DNA of 64,000 nucleotides from Sulfurovum sp. NBC37-1. GTDB lineage: Bacteria > Campylobacterota > Campylobacteria > Campylobacterales > Sulfurovaceae. The translations under genes and the position numbers were made by a program. Under the pieces are notes generated by a model. The model did no database searches, was not told where the DNA came from, and saw only the letters and a program-made list of their open reading frames with translations. This document shows positions 2,639 through 9,723 of the stretch, one piece after another (the first letter of the stretch is position 1; each line of letters starts with the position of its first letter). The stretch spans positions 2,418,001 through 2,482,000 of the forward strand of contig NC_009663.1 in the NCBI RefSeq assembly GCF_000010345.1, in the 5' to 3' direction.

Positions 2639-2810
2639 TAAAAACACAAACTTCATTACATCCATAAATACATCAACTCAGAACTTTTCCAAAGCTTGAA
2701 AAATTTTCCAAGTACATAAACCATAGCATATTAAGAAAGCTATTGGATGAACTATTAGAATTTGCTATCAACCAATAGGTGAACCATTAAAAAAATACGA
2801 AAGGTTAAAA

Positions 2811-3368
2811 ATGGGTTACAAGATCACTGTTAAACAGGGTAATCTTCTGGAAGAAGAGAATGCCACTTTTATTGTCAATGCTTCCAATACACGCTTGATC
2901 CTTGGTTCCGGTGTATCAATGTCATTTAAAAGGCATTGTGGACACGAATTGCAAGAAGAGATGGGTTTTAAACTTGATGCTATCGGAGAGGAACTACGCA
3001 AAGGTGATATAGTTGCGACCTCATCAGCCAATGCCAAAAATTTCAGATATGCTCTTCATGTAGCCATTATGGATTACAATAAAGGCACCAAGGAGTGTAA
3101 CAAGTACCCTGCACTTAACGATATTGAAATAGCCCTTGAAAATATTGAGCCCTATCTGGAATGGTATGCAAAAGAGCATACCGAACCAATGAAATTAGTA
3201 CTTCCCTTGCTTGGCTGTGGTACCGGCGGTTTAGATGTTTGTAAGGTAAGCAATCTTTATAAATCTTTCCTTTCAAGGGATGTATCTTTTGACTGTAATG
3301 TAGTAATCTATGGATACAGTGAAAAAGATTATGAGCTTATAAAATCATTCATGATCCCCTCTTCTTAA
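2811..3368 (+). CDS. Macro-domain protein
   Basis: A 185-residue stand-alone macro domain, the fold that binds ADP-ribose and its derivatives. Diagnostic stretches are the strand-loop IVNASNTRLILGSGVS (adenosine-binding Asn and the glycine loop), KGDIVATSSANA, and the phosphate-binding loop LPLLGCGTGGLD. It could remove ADP-ribose from proteins or nucleic acids, or process ADP-ribose metabolites; the sequence cannot decide. In mobile elements such proteins often accompany toxin or defence systems, but no ADP-ribosyltransferase is seen nearby. The start at 2811 follows GAAAGG with suitable spacing. Confidence 0.8.
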   Translation: MGYKITVKQGNLLEEENATFIVNASNTRLILGSGVSMSFKRHCGHELQEEMGFKLDAIGEELRKGDIVATSSANAKNFRYALHVAIMDYNKGTKECNKYPALNDIEIALENIEPYLEWYAKEHTEPMKLVLPLLGCGTGGLDVCKVSNLYKSFLSRDVSFDCNVVIYGYSEKDYELIKSFMIPSS

Positions 3369-3448
3369 TATTTGGAACAAATTATTCATTTATGACTAAT
3401 TTAAGTTTAGATCAGGAAAAATATATATAGATAAAGAGAAGGAGCCAC

Positions 3449-3673
3449 ATGAAGTTAACTCAAAAAGAATCTGCAGTTATCCGTTTACGTTATGGGTTAG
3501 ACGTTGATGAACCTTTGACTTATCAGGAAATAGCCGAAATAGTTGGTCTTGGCAAAACCATGGTGAAGCAACTCGAACAGAGAGCACTTAGAAAACTTCG
3601 GCATCCAAACAATAGAGAAGCAATGAGGGAAATTCAGGAAACCATCGACCTGATTAACACTCCCGACAATTAA
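3449..3673 (+). CDS. Small sigma-70 region 4-like DNA-binding protein (first copy)
   Basis: Seventy-four residues that consist almost entirely of a sigma-70 region 4 helix-turn-helix: VIRLRYGLDVDEPLTYQEIA, then IVGLGKTMVKQLEQRALRKL, ending RHP, matching the RpoD pattern that recognises the -35 element. Regions 2 and 3 are missing, so it cannot act as a normal sigma factor; it may be an anti-/co-sigma-type regulator or a repressor. A strong AGAAGGAG ribosome site precedes the ATG. A second, related gene follows 58 bases later. Confidence 0.75.
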   Translation: MKLTQKESAVIRLRYGLDVDEPLTYQEIAEIVGLGKTMVKQLEQRALRKLRHPNNREAMREIQETIDLINTPDN

Positions 3674-3731
3674 ATATAATTTGCATCACCAAATAATTTC
3701 TAACAAATCCAAATAAATGGAGGATATACCC

Positions 3732-3995
3732 ATGTCAAAAATTGAACAAGAAATTGCACTAAAGTACAGGTTTGCATCAGACAGAATAATGAGCAGGCTT
3801 TTGGAATGTCAGCATGATATCAAATGCATCAATCATGCCTTAAAATATTGCGGATCCACCGATTTAACTCTTGAAGAGATCGGTTTGGTTCTCGGAGTGA
3901 CAAGAGAAAGAGTAAGGCAAATAGAGTCCTCCGCATTGAAGAAGTTAAGGAACCCTAAAATCGGAAGAATCTTGAGAGATTATATGACAATGTAA
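3732..3995 (+). CDS. Small sigma-70 region 4-like DNA-binding protein (second copy)
   Basis: Eighty-seven residues from the ATG at 3732, chosen because GGAGGA sits seven bases before it; an upstream in-frame ATG at 3717 overlaps that ribosome site. The C-terminal half is a sigma region 4 helix-turn-helix ([20 protein letters not shown], then [11 protein letters not shown]), nearer to canonical RpoD/RpoS than the preceding gene. The N-terminal ~45 residues are helical and not recognised. Its closeness to its neighbour suggests duplication or a two-protein regulator. Confidence 0.7.
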
Positions 3996-4107
3996 TGTTT
4001 CAACAGCCTATAAGTACCCGAAGAAGCTTATAGAACCTATTAAGAGTCATGGCTGCAAAATAGATACAGAACGGATATACAATATTAATGCTACACAAAG
4101 GAACAAA

Positions 4108-4434
4108 ATGGATTTTGATGAATACTTACGCGTTATACAAATTGAAGATTTTGTAAGTATATTGGGTATTGATGGGGAAATATTTGGTGAAACAAAGCAA
4201 AATATATCTCTTCATACACTATTGAAAAACTTACAAAGGCATAAAGACAAATTCGATCAAGCAAAAGGGGCTTGCCTGTGTCTTTCTCAGGATTTAACAG
4301 ACTTTGAAGATGGTCCAATGTGGCAAATTTATGGACTAGTAAAAAATTTAGATACTTATTTCATAAAAGAAAACCCTGCATTTAAAATACAGAAAAATTT
4401 GTACTCTTATAGTTTGCTGCTTGCTGGATTATAA
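4108..4434 (+). CDS. Hypothetical protein of the island
   Basis: A 108-residue acidic protein without a recognisable domain, signal peptide or membrane helix; it starts MDFDEYLRVIQIEDF. An AAAGGA ribosome site precedes the ATG. The frame stays open upstream to about 3997 without a good start codon, so an older, longer form may have existed. It follows the two sigma-4-like genes in the same direction and may belong with them. Confidence 0.5.
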   Translation: MDFDEYLRVIQIEDFVSILGIDGEIFGETKQNISLHTLLKNLQRHKDKFDQAKGACLCLSQDLTDFEDGPMWQIYGLVKNLDTYFIKENPAFKIQKNLYSYSLLLAGL

Positions 4435-4449
4435 TAATATTTCAGTTCA

Positions 4450-4613
4450 ACTGATTTATGCTTGGAGGAATTGGTTTGATTTTTGATATTACAAGAGGAA
4501 AAATTAGACAAATTGAAACATCTGCTTTTATACGTTTTTTAAACCACATTTCCTTTGATGGTTTTCCTTATAAAATATCCCAATATAGAACATTTTATAA
4601 GTTTTTCTATTGA
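4450..4613 (+). pseudogene. Broken third copy of the sigma-70 region 4-like gene
   Basis: In one frame 4455-4474 reads DLCLEEL, and after a one-base shift the sequence continues GGIGLIFDITRGKIRQIETS and AFIRFLNH, which lines up with [20 protein letters not shown] of the gene at 3732-3995. The frameshift at about 4465-4475 and the lack of a proper start make this a remnant. A 51-codon frame from the ATG at 4458 to the TGA at 4611 is still open. Confidence 0.65.
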
Positions 4614-4654
4614 AGTGTACAAAATTATGACTCGCAAACGTCGCTACAGCGAAT

Positions 4655-4690
4655 AACCTTATAAAATATATTAGATTATAAGGTTTTAAT
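4655..4690 (+). terminator. Terminator-like AT-rich hairpin
   Basis: AACCTTATAA and TTATAAGGTT form a 10-bp stem around an AT-rich loop, followed by T-rich sequence. A near copy (29 of 33 bases) is found at 6591-6623, on the other side of the cassette genes. Both could end transcription in either direction. Confidence 0.45.
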
Positions 4691-4697
4691 TTATAGC

Positions 4698-4758
4698 GTC
4701 TAAAATGACCAATAAATTGCCTGCAGGGTAATTTATTGGCTCCACTGATTTGTTAGGC
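4698..4758 (-). other. Degenerate attC-like integron recombination site
   Basis: Read on the minus strand it begins GCCTAACAAATCAGTGG, a good R''/L'' arm (RYYYAAC core), then a strong palindrome (CCAATAAATT ... AATTTATTGG, 4709-4739), and ends TCATTTTAGAC, where a GTTTAGAC-type R' core would be expected. It lies at the 3' end of the PLD-like gene, where a cassette's attC should be. The R' core has lost its G, and its R'' does not match the start of the same cassette, so it may be a hybrid or decayed site. Confidence 0.45.
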
Positions 4759-4799
4759 TCATTTTATTCGCAGAAATGGAAAACAAAAAAGCCAATATG

Positions 4800-5501
4800 T
4801 TACGGATACTTTACAACCCCTTTTTCCCATCGAGTTTCGTACATATCTAAAATTGGCTCAAATGCATCAGTAATTCCTGTAATGATTGTGTCCGCTTTCT
4901 TTGCCCCATCTTTGAACGAAGCACCAGATTGATAGCAGTTGGTTTTATCAACCATTACGAATCTGTCATGTAACTCTCCACTATCTCGTATTTCAACAGA
5001 GACTCCATGTTGTTTACAATACATATCAACTGCTGGAACTAGAGTCTTGAATTTACCTCCCAAAAGGCGTACAGATACATCTGAGTGAACATGAGGTAGA
5101 TACCGAGAAACAAATTCTGCATCTAAGTAAGGATCAATAAAGAGAATATCTTTTGTTGCAGTTTCAATGATCTTGCGAACAGAGTCAAAATAATCGAACA
5201 TTTGCCCTGAGCTGATGGCAGAGCTAATTGGTCCAAACATTTTAAGTCTAAGTTCTGATATAAGTTGTTGTATTATGACAAGAATTTGAGGTAGTGCGTC
5301 GTATCGAAATGTACTGCTTTTCAATCTTGGCTCAAGTGTCAAAAACTCGCTTTTAAGATCTATACGATTTGCAATGGTAAATAATGCTCTAATATCTGCT
5401 CGCCAAGCAAGGCCCTCTTCGTTATCAATATCGTCAATTTTCGGTCGGTTTCTGAGCAAGTATTCAGCCTGTGCAAGTAACTGCTGTTCTGTTAGAGCCA
5501 A
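4800..5501 (-). CDS. PLD-like (HDRF-type) protein in an integron cassette
   Basis: A 233-residue protein. Residues ~117-230 look like a small phospholipase-D-like domain: a strand ending DILFIDPYLD, then ELHDRFVMVD with His178, followed by a YQSGASFKDGAKK stretch, a pattern seen in short single-motif PLD-like proteins of accessory regions. The usual HxK is HDR here, so catalysis is uncertain. The N-terminal ~110 residues are helical and unassigned. It sits between two attC-like sites in the orientation expected of a gene cassette. A role in defence is possible but is only inference. Confidence 0.6.
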   Translation of the reverse strand: MALTEQQLLAQAEYLLRNRPKIDDIDNEEGLAWRADIRALFTIANRIDLKSEFLTLEPRLKSSTFRYDALPQILVIIQQLISELRLKMFGPISSAISSGQMFDYFDSVRKIIETATKDILFIDPYLDAEFVSRYLPHVHSDVSVRLLGGKFKTLVPAVDMYCKQHGVSVEIRDSGELHDRFVMVDKTNCYQSGASFKDGAKKADTIITGITDAFEPILDMYETRWEKGVVKYP

Positions 5502-5529
5502 TTTTTCTTCTTCTTTATGCTGAAACGTC

Positions 5530-5598
5530 GCACAACCAAGCTGTGCGGCACAAACGAAGCCCAGCGTTGTTTGTATCCGAACGAGTGCCTTGTTAGGT
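5530..5598 (-). other. attC site between two gene cassettes
   Basis: On the minus strand the site runs from ACCTAAC (5598-5592) to GTTGTGC (5536-5530), 69 bases, with partly complementary arms: CCTAACAAGGCAC...CGG pairs with the complement of GCACAACCAAGC...CGG with the usual unpaired extra base. The decisive point is that its R'' end ATCACCTAAC (5601-5592) is the exact complement of GTTAGGTGAT at the start of the same cassette (6357-6348), as integron theory requires for a cassette that was once circular. Confidence 0.75.
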
Positions 5599-5613
5599 GA
5601 TGTATTAATACCA

Positions 5614-6318
5614 TTACTGCGTCCCTTTCAATTTCTTGACCAACCTTATTTTTCTTTTCTCAATTGCTTTCTTTTCTGATTTTGTTGGCTGTACTGGATC
5701 GAATGATTTTTCATACCGTTCAATTACATTTAGTGCTCCGACATAATCTTTTTGCTTCTCAAGACACATGCTAAGCCTGTTAATGGGAGAAGGCTTGTAA
5801 CGATGGGCTGAGGCGTATTTGTCTTGTTCTGTTAGTTTGTAAATTTCCTCAGTTATTGATTTGTAATCCGATACAGCTTGTTCAATATTTCCGTTTTTCT
5901 CAGTTTTTTCGGCTTTTTCTATTCGTTTATCAAACTGCTCAGCGATTTCCCGTAACTTATTAAATCTAGACCAATCTGGTTCTGGTTTTGATAGTTTTAG
6001 AACAACGCCAATATTCTTTTTTCCTAATATAGAGCGAGCAAACCAATTAGTTCCGCCTGTAAGTTTGTGAATAGTCGCCTTAATTGGCTCGCCCCTCAGA
6101 ATTGAACTTGAATCTCTTGCATCAGAAGGGAGAAAACCTATCTGTTTTCCAGCCACCGTTAATACAGCAACAGCATTTCTATCGTGTTTATTCATTGGAT
6201 CTGCAACAAGATTAACCGGCTGGCCAACTTTTAATTCTTTTATTATCTCTTGTCTGTCAGTTCCATCACCGTTTTGATGCGATTCTCCACGGATGCCAAC
6301 AAGAAAAGTATTAGCCAT
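5614..6318 (-). CDS. HIRAN-domain protein in an integron cassette
   Basis: A 234-residue protein. Residues ~5-95 form a HIRAN domain, a DNA-end-binding module known from HLTF/Rad5-type proteins and from many bacterial stand-alone proteins: VGIRGESHQNGDGTDRQEII, a KVGQPVNL strand, DPMNKHDRNAVAV and GKQIGFLPSDA. The rest is helical and charged, with a TPR-like look. A possible role is recognition of damaged or foreign DNA ends. The gene starts 30 bases inside the cassette boundary at 6348-6357 and ends just before an attC site, so it has the layout of a mobile gene cassette. Confidence 0.75.
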   Translation of the reverse strand: MANTFLVGIRGESHQNGDGTDRQEIIKELKVGQPVNLVADPMNKHDRNAVAVLTVAGKQIGFLPSDARDSSSILRGEPIKATIHKLTGGTNWFARSILGKKNIGVVLKLSKPEPDWSRFNKLREIAEQFDKRIEKAEKTEKNGNIEQAVSDYKSITEEIYKLTEQDKYASAHRYKPSPINRLSMCLEKQKDYVGALNVIERYEKSFDPVQPTKSEKKAIEKRKIRLVKKLKGTQ

Positions 6319-6347
6319 GTTTTTCTCCAGTTTTTGGATGCACGATA

Positions 6348-6357
6348 ATCACCTAAC
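6348..6357 (-). other. Cassette boundary (integron core site)
   Basis: On the minus strand it reads GTTAGGTGAT, a GTTRRRY core that marks the start of the HIRAN cassette. It matches the complement of the R'' arm of that cassette's attC at 5592-5601 over all ten bases. No integron integrase gene and no further cassette are visible to the right of it. Confidence 0.6.
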
Positions 6358-6590
6358 TATTTATTTAAGGAACACAATGTCCTTCTATTAAAATATTCAA
6401 GTATTAAAAGTATATATCCAATATGTCTTGTTATTTGAGAAAATAGATCAAATTTGTACATTTTAACAATATTCCATCTTTTTATAACAATTTCTAATGT
6501 CCTTTCAGCCTAAAAATAGCCATTATTTGGACACAGTATTCCATTAATTGTCAATTTTTGGTAATAAAAGACAAAATATCCTCTTTGTAA

Positions 6591-6627
6591 AACCTTATAA
6601 AATATATAATTTTATGAGGTTTTCAAT
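6591..6627 (+). terminator. Terminator-like AT-rich hairpin (second copy)
   Basis: AACCTTATAA pairs with TTATGAGGTT (one G-T pair) and is followed by TTTC. It resembles the hairpin at 4655-4690. The surrounding 6360-6780 stretch is very AT-rich and shows no gene; besides this hairpin I see nothing functional in it. Confidence 0.4.
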
Positions 6628-6786
6628 TGGCAGCCAAATGAAGTGTATAAGCTCTATTTCGACTACCGTATCCAATAGATAACTACATCTCTAAATAATC
6701 ATCAAGCCTTCCCACTCCAAAAAAGATAGATAATTGTGATATTGTCAGACTCCGGTTTCTCATCAGCAGTGGCCATTTCTTTTGAG

Positions 6787-7062
6787 TATTCTTGATTAAT
6801 TGTGGTTCAAATGAGCCGTTACGACCTCCGGGCATATCAAGCTCAAACTCTTCAACACTACTTTCATCGTCTTGGAGGATTCCCCGTTTTTACGGTTTCG
6901 TATTTCAGTTGAGAGATGGGATTCAAGCTCTGCTTCGAGAACTGCTTGGATGAGTTGTTTGATAAGCGGAGCAAGTACTCCATCTTTACTTTCTGTTTTT
7001 GCACCTGCCCTGATCTGTTCAAGTACTTTATTTAGATCGAACTGACACAAAACTTCTAACAC
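6787..7062 (-). pseudogene. IS256-family transposase remnant, frameshifted
   Basis: The first ~70 residues match the N-terminus of IS256/Mutator-type transposases: FDLNKVLEQIRAGAKTESKD, then GVLAPLIKQLIQAVLEAELE, a SHLSTE motif and RNRKNGESSKTMK. After that the frame is lost; a neighbouring frame (6789-6851) carries the expected continuation EFELDMPGGRNGSFEPQLIK. The catalytic DDE part is absent. This is therefore a dead fragment left by an insertion near the right end of the island. Confidence 0.8.
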
Positions 7063-7106
7063 TCCCTATCCAGATATAGCTATGTATTCTTTTCCGTTGG
7101 AGTATA

Positions 7107-7162
7107 AAGAGGTTCGTGCTAACATTAGCACAGCTTGCAAATTTTACTTGTGATAACCTCTT
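7107..7162. repeat. Nested inverted repeats beside the transposase remnant
   Basis: AAGAGGTT (7107-7114) and AACCTCTT (7155-7162) are complementary, and between them GTGCTAA/TTAGCAC (7116-7131) forms a second palindrome. They lie just upstream of the IS256-like remnant and may be an insertion-sequence end or recombinase arm sites. No gene is seen in 7063-7276. Confidence 0.4.
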
Positions 7163-7276
7163 GATAGCATAGAAATATTGAACTGTATAGTAGTGTGAAT
7201 AGTGGAATTCTATTTGAGATACGGTTTATAGGTTATTGTGAAGAATTATGATGAAATATATAGAAGTTTATTTCCG

Positions 7277-7316
7277 CGTTCCAGTCGTGCGCCTTCGACC
7301 ACTCGGCCACCTCTCT
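7277..7316 (-). pseudogene. Truncated tRNA-Ser (GGA), 5' half only
   Basis: The minus strand reads AGAGAGG TG GCCGAGTGG, GTCGAAGGC and GCACGACTGGAAC: acceptor 5' strand, D-arm, anticodon 5' stem and loop with GGA. The matching 3' anticodon stem (TCGTG), variable arm, T-arm and CCA are missing, and AT-rich island sequence follows. The break falls in the anticodon loop, a favoured attachment site for tyrosine integrases. It begins 10 bases after the 4.5S RNA gene, so this is presumably the native locus. Confidence 0.85.
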
Positions 7317-7326
7317 ACGGTCTGTA

Positions 7327-8820: not shown

Positions 8821-9132
8821 ATGGAAAAAATTAGATTAAAGCTTAAAGCTTACGATCACAGAGTGTTAGACAGGTCAGTTGCTGCTATCGTTGATGCAGT
8901 TAAACGTACAGGTGCTGAGATTAGAGGGCCGATTCCAATGCCAACTAAGATGAAGCGTTATACTGTTCTTAAATCACCTCACGTCAATAAAGATGCGCGT
9001 GAGCAGTTTGAGATCAGAATTCATGGAAGAATGATCGATATCGTTTCGGCAACTTCAGATACAATTGATTCACTTATGAAGTTGGATCTTGCGCCTGAAA
9101 TCGAAGTTGAAATCAGATCAATGGACAAGTAG
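8821..9132 (+). CDS. rpsJ: Ribosomal protein S10
   Basis: 103 residues starting [19 protein letters not shown], a standard S10. It belongs to the 30S head and in other bacteria also pairs with NusB in antitermination. It is the first gene of an unbroken plus-strand run that joins the S10, spc and alpha operons. AAAGGG lies six bases before the ATG. L3 follows after nine bases. Confidence 0.97.
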
Positions 9133-9141
9133 GAGTAGAGA

Positions 9142-9723
9142 ATGGAATTTATTGTAGAAAAAATTGGTATGAGCAGAACTGTTGACGTACCAAGTGTTCC
9201 AGTTACACTTCTTAAAGTCGTTGATACGAAAGTTTGTGAAGTGAAAGAAGACGGAAAAGCACTTGTAGCGTACAACTCGAGCAAGAAACTCAACAAGAGC
9301 ATCGAAGGTCAGCAGACCAAATTCGGTGTCTCCAAAGAGTTCAACAAATTCATGACAATCGAAGTGGCTGAAGGTACTGAAGCGGGTGATCTCAACCCAG
9401 CGGCATTGGCTGAAGCAGCAGCAGTGAAAACTTCCCTTAACACCAAAGGTAGAGGTTTCTCCGGTGGTATGAAGCGTCACAACTTTGGTGGTGGACCAGG
9501 TTCGCACGGACACAGATTCGGTAGAAGAATCGGTTCGATCGGTAACGCTGAATGGCCTGGACGTGTACAGAAAGGCAAGAAAATGCCTGGACAGTACGGT
9601 AACACTAAAGTTACAGTTAAAAATGACGTTGTGTCATTCGATGCTGAGAACGGCATCTTAGTATTAAAAGGTTCAATTCCTGGTCACAACGGTGCCAGAG
9701 GATTGGTAAGGATAGTTAAATAA
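9142..9723 (+). CDS. rplC: Ribosomal protein L3
   Basis: 193 residues. The central [19 protein letters not shown] and the KMPGQYGN stretch form the extension that reaches toward the peptidyl-transferase centre. It starts [16 protein letters not shown] and is slightly shorter than the E. coli protein. An early 50S assembly protein. Its stop overlaps the L4 start (TAATG), implying translational coupling. Confidence 0.97.

Follow-up and report, generated by a model that had tools for sequence, protein, structure and literature searches.

The window analysed here is a stretch of 64,000 nucleotides (2418001–2482000) in the single-contig chromosome (2,562,277 bases) of Sulfurovum sp. NBC37-1, a strain from the Iheya North vent field (PMC2040194). 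An earlier note, made from the sequence alone, had described positions 4698–6357 of the window as two integron gene cassettes in a Campylobacterota-like genome, with no integrase gene in the window. The question is whether these are true cassettes and, if so, how they came to stand there without an integrase. The description was borne out by an attI site, both attC sites and the ends of the first cassette, and the limits of the proposed range nearly coincide with two crossovers, that of attI and that of the second attC.

Two Gene Cassettes and Their attC Sites

The following features were found in the array:

5536–6356, minus strand: gene cassette 1 (HIRAN), 821 bp, G|TT at each end
5614–6318, minus strand: HIRAN-domain protein, 234 aa (PF08797, E 2.8e-10)
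5530–5599, minus strand: attC of cassette 1 (site 1), 70 nt, gammaproteobacterial pTBH13 type
4697–5535, minus strand: gene cassette 2 (PLD-like), 839 bp, imperfect (start against R″, 5/7)
4800–5501, minus strand: PLD-like protein, 233 aa (PADLOC PDC-S05, E 6e-19)
4691–4761, minus strand: attC of cassette 2 (site 2), Campylobacterota type by the R1 model, crossover GTT changed to GCT

Both genes lie on the minus strand and each has an attC in the same orientation at its 3′ end, in agreement with the cassette direction proposed beforehand. The HIRAN unit opens with G|TTAGGTGAT at the 6357/6356 crossover; its start GTTAGGTGAT, of the GTTRRRY form, is complementary at 10/10 positions to the R″ end of its own attC, ATCACCTAAC, as had already been noticed; the length of 69 bases given for this attC was also nearly exact. 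These are the only two occurrences of the 10-mer in the whole 64 kb, where chance alone would give about 0.001 in 1 kb. When this start/end rule was checked on 30 neighbouring cassette pairs of related integrons, 7/7 positions agreed in 21 of them.

The attC sites were searched by homology to relatives' arrays in place of a strict R″/R′ regular-expression scan combined with RNA folding, which missed almost all true attCs, the window sites included. The arrays beside relatives' integrases (L021–L033) contain 44 attC sites of one recognisable family, from which a covariance model (R1) was built with the window sequence left out. Site 2 matches R1 at 4692–4761, gaplessly over its full length, with 64.3 bits (E 8e-9 genome-wide), and it shares 96% identity over 47 nt with an attC of the complete integron L033. 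It had been called a degenerate attC-like site; the flaw is real, since the crossover triplet is GCT and not GTT, but the match is better than that wording implies. A 7-nt deletion as the nature of this flaw was ruled out by the gapless covariance alignment, which shows one T-to-C change at the crossover. The R″ of cassette 2 (GCCTAAC) agrees with its own start (GTTGTGC) at only 5/7 positions and, given also the GCT crossover, the second unit is an imperfect or rearranged cassette.

Site 1 was not found by R1 because it is an attC of another type. Its best match, the best of three places, is an attC of plasmid pTBH13 of Thiolapillus brandeum (85% identity over 68 nt, E 9e-13), the one record matched when 72,556 plasmids were searched with site 1 by a sensitive nucleotide method. 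Four pTBH13 attCs align with site 1, and an HMM of these five sequences had site 1 as its sole match in the own-genome loci searched. In an Rfam search, only SRP RNA and tRNA exceeded their gathering scores in this region, and no attC was matched.

The host of pTBH13, a gammaproteobacterium, was isolated from a vent chimney in the Okinawa Trough (PMC4136832). Genes resembling cassettes stand in a row on the plasmid (NZ_AP012275), among them HicAB, RelE-HigA, FRG, TIR and caspase-like genes. Its cassettes are defence- and toxin–antitoxin-like and share the attC type of the HIRAN cassette; it differs from the present locus in being a gammaproteobacterial plasmid with no HIRAN gene annotated. Judging by the type of its attC, the HIRAN cassette probably came from another, unrelated vent bacterium.

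The HIRAN protein has one relative in genome contigs (84% identity, Epsilonproteobacteria MAG SpSt-1228, L034) and none in viral contigs, and its HIRAN part weakly matches PADLOC PDC-M03B. The relative stands in a different context without a PLD neighbour. By eye, it is flanked by a near-identical direct repeat of about 85 bp (about 1606–1690 and 2764–2850 of L034), and no attC sites are recognisable there. The PLD-like protein has no Pfam hit; PDC-S05 is a PADLOC candidate-defence model. A 41% relative was found in the viral contig IMGVR_UViG_3300018868_000061 (L060 1996–2709), where it stands among apparent phage genes, and relatives in plasmids are partial and mostly RhuM-type proteins. A PDB search by sequence found no homologues.

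The attI Landing Site

The first cassette adjoins one further site:

6357–6586, minus strand: attI region, that is, the landing site of the resident integron with its upstream boxes (G|TT crossover at 6357/6356)

An HMM of the attI region built from relatives alone matched the window at 6350–6586 with E 1.9e-17. A 119-nt attI model made from 11 sequences (R2) matched at 6355–6454 with E 1e-6, its sole significant match in the 64 kb. At the junction, the integron L023 of the same genus reads GGACATTATGTTCCTCTAATAAATAG|TT and the window locus GGACATTGTGTTCCTTAAATAAATAG|TT, and the intI–attI spacer of L023 matches the window across the spacer. All 12 alignable intI–attI spacers of complete integrons end in AATAAATAG|TT, and the common context at several cassette left boundaries in NBC37-1 is the attI of these complete integrons. 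The attI model is sound: among the best 100 R2 hits, all 24 beside an intI are divergent from it and, by the attC matches listed, an attC lies downstream on the same strand at no fewer than 31 and on the wrong side at none.

The left boundary of the HIRAN cassette is therefore an attI, homologous over about 230 nt to an intI–attI spacer, and this bears on two other explanations. One is a CALIN that arose by off-target insertion at a secondary attG-like site and at no time belonged to an integron. PMC8618304 names this route among those to CALINs, and the small cluster, the scattered attCs of the genome and the lack of a nearby intI would suit it, but attG insertion would bring no spacer homology with it, and this explanation is very improbable. 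The other, that chance palindromes lie between two ordinary genes with no integron history, might appeal to the AT-rich sequence with its many hairpins and to the modest fold z-scores of single sites. With a 64-bit covariance match, the 85% match to a gammaproteobacterial cassette array, an attI and exact 10-nt cassette ends against it, it has practically no weight.

The cassette stands at a native attI homologous to the attI beside intI in the same genus. The locus is therefore very probably what remains of a chromosomal integron resident in this Campylobacterota lineage, rather than a product of off-target insertion or of capture entirely from outside. The earlier suggestion of a foreign integrase finds no support, given the native landing site and another relic that keeps a native IntI end (below); what is foreign in type at the locus is the attC of the first cassette. 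The alternative suggestion of a CALIN-type cluster is right in that two attCs, about 840 bp apart, stand without intI, but an attI is retained, and since CALINs are defined by attCs only, a decayed integron is the better description. The cassette genes still point away from attI. Their expression may start in the attI (Pc) region, in which a simple promoter scan found no convincing site.

Probable Loss of the Integrase

The absence of intI from the window, as reported earlier, extends to the whole chromosome, where the genome search then proposed found no IntI (TIGR02249) match above generic tyrosine recombinases; the intI gene of a functional integron is thus lacking. The NF011946 and TIGR02249 hits in this genome were rejected as generic Xer/phage integrases. 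Protein and profile searches of the genome showed no intI pseudogene.

A relic at about 1051470–1051690 (minus strand; L050, about 8970–9190) carries EMNKGRVASPLD, the 12 C-terminal residues of IntI, joined directly to an attI region that is truncated. This junction is a deletion scar and shows that the chromosome once had an integrase. The window locus has no intI fragment left, and we infer its loss there from attI and the other relics.

In the most probable course of events, attC × attI recombination by IntI would have brought a circular HIRAN cassette into attI (G|TT, 6357/6356); the PLD-like unit with its native-type attC lies behind it. The integrase gene would later have been lost and its place taken by a palindromic repeat and transposon debris. 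The terminal attC would have lost its GTT, and with no intI in the genome the array would now be frozen.

attI Relics and Integrons Across the Order

In the NBC37-1 genome, R1 detected 12 Campylobacterota-type attCs at E 2.5e-4 or better; the next match (E 2.2) is merely the opposite strand of one of them. About ten attI relics were found in all, the window included. Within the stretches of this genome that were examined, the relatives-only attI HMM gave up to nine further relics, near 690k, 1051k, 1151k, 1191k, 1214k, 1252k, 1461k, 1492k and 1550k; they were checked with R2, and the 1151k copy is not among the R2 matches listed. Cassettes at other relics include genes for a PD-T7-4 family protein (258 bits), a protein with an AbiJ N-terminal domain and an HNH-repeat nuclease.

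Two relics showed further details. L049 2560–2735 (genome 690.6–690.8k) is a minimal attI–attC unit without an ORF, with the palindrome CTCGTTCCCACGCTGAGCGTGGGAA on both sides. L098 3560–4560 (genome about 1461.6–1462.6k) holds an attI relic with a PD-T7-4 (DUF4145) cassette, whose ends are complementary over 9 nt and whose attC, by eye, is likewise not of the Campylobacterota type.

Integron cassettes had been thought rarely reported in this phylum. This does not hold: among 299 genomes of the order, 43 have the integron integrase TIGR02249 above cut-off (four in the same genus), 101 have R1 attCs and 102 have an R2 attI, and the phylum and this strain are already listed in PMC8618304 and PMC10295459, respectively. 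No clear intI was found in 61 of the attI-bearing genomes, some of the genomes counted being incomplete, and none was detected within 600 bp of 76 of the best 100 attI hits.

Hairpin Repeats and Chromosomal Flanks

The array is bounded by repeats, and a transposase remnant adjoins the relic:

6589–6623, no strand assigned: left palindromic repeat (LE), in the place expected for the intI start
4567–4689, no strand assigned: right repeat (RE) of about 125 nt, after site 2; it includes three AACCTTATAA palindromes
6796–7062, minus strand: Mutator-family transposase remnant, weak match (PF00872, E 0.0033, below cut-off)

The junction of the LE hairpin with attI is the same at two other loci of the genome, and RE is multi-copy in the genome and the genus. 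Elsewhere in Sulfurovum-like genomes (L085–L095), LE and RE bound units of 0.65–4.7 kb with unrelated genes; three LE units of NBC37-1 hold attI and cassettes. Two orthologous units in this genome (G000) and in genome G141 (231k versus 2003k; 483k versus 1800k) have flanks 84–96% identical, and their cargo shares nothing beyond short palindrome matches. The 483k slot is probably empty in G361 and G420. No transposase was identified in the LE–RE units and no target duplication was established; the ends are conserved and the cargo is swapped. These units resemble a hotspot of cargo swapping, or a mobile element, of a kind not yet described; LE/RE may be either a moving element or a preferred exchange point for homologous recombination.

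The attI–cassette unit could have been copied here as a block by an LE/RE-ended mobile or recombining element, with intI never present at this place. This account is compatible with a decayed integron as to the parts and competes only on the route of arrival. Three attI units share the LE–attI junction, two of them with RE after the last attC, and the unrelated cargo elsewhere, with different cargo at the orthologous G141 sites, points the same way. Against this, no LE–RE unit has a transposase or an established target duplication, the relics at 690k, 1150k, 1190k and 1050k have no LE/RE, and RE is partial at 1492k. Copying as a block is a real possibility, with somewhat less than an even chance. 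A wider and rather unlikely reading is that the integron of the order would consist mainly of dispersed attI–cassette modules without their own intI, which would be carried about the chromosome in hairpin-bounded exchangeable slots and depend on an IntI acting in trans, either shared or present only at times; if true, this would mean a multi-attI architecture and not one decaying platform.

Farther out, sequence from window position 7275 onward directly adjoins a tRNA-Ser gene in four same-genus genomes. The counterpart of this gene here, tRNA-Ser(GGA), lies at 2551–2638 and is inverted relative to those genomes, and the stretch 2640–7275 is absent from the corresponding place in them, indicating an insertion or rearrangement and no ordinary conserved neighbourhood. 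A 43-nt fragment of tRNA-Ser(GGA) remains at 7275–7318; with the inversion, it marks a rearrangement or island breakpoint. The same HIRAN–PLD neighbours with the same flanks, as ordinary adjacent genes would show, were sought and not found in the flanks of the four relatives or at the sole HIRAN relative. By eye, 4455–4545 repeats, in degenerate form, the end of the sigma-70 region-4 gene (3717–3995).

Relation to Known Systems

Complete integrons of the order (for example L023 of the same genus; L028–L033) share with the locus the AATAAATAG|TT attI, the attC family and the cassette direction, but have a full intI and usually longer native-type attC arrays, which the window locus lacks. Campylobacterota are among the published integron-bearing phyla (PMC8618304), and NBC37-1 itself is listed with two CALINs, likewise attC-bounded cassettes without intI (PMC10295459, Table 1, which does not state whether one of them is the present locus). 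Because of these reported CALINs, the kind is already known; what sets this genome apart is the number of attI copies without intI dispersed in it. No earlier report of about ten such copies in one chromosome was found in the literature outside subscription.

The available portion of PMC12444791 describes for the decayed integrons of Xanthomonas a lineage-wide loss of intI with fixed cassettes and CALINs at several chromosomal loci. Loss of intI, fixed cassettes and several loci are thus shared with NBC37-1, but that portion describes CALINs and not attI copies, whereas NBC37-1 has about ten dispersed intI-less attI.

Biological Meaning

The picture of Campylobacterota is corrected, as intI, attC and attI are common in the order in this sample. 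The conserved attI is directly searchable, and attI copies without intI record a history that is under-reported by scans based on IntI and attC. Through the HIRAN cassette, a campylobacterotan and a gammaproteobacterium, both from vents, are connected in a likely case of cassette exchange across phyla. At the other relics the cassettes resemble phage defence (PD-T7-4, AbiJ N-terminal domain, HNH). The HIRAN and PLD-like proteins show partial matches to PADLOC candidate-defence profiles, and a defence role for the cassette cargo is a fair guess. The relic cassettes make testable the idea that vent chemoautotrophs may hold frozen defence reserves.
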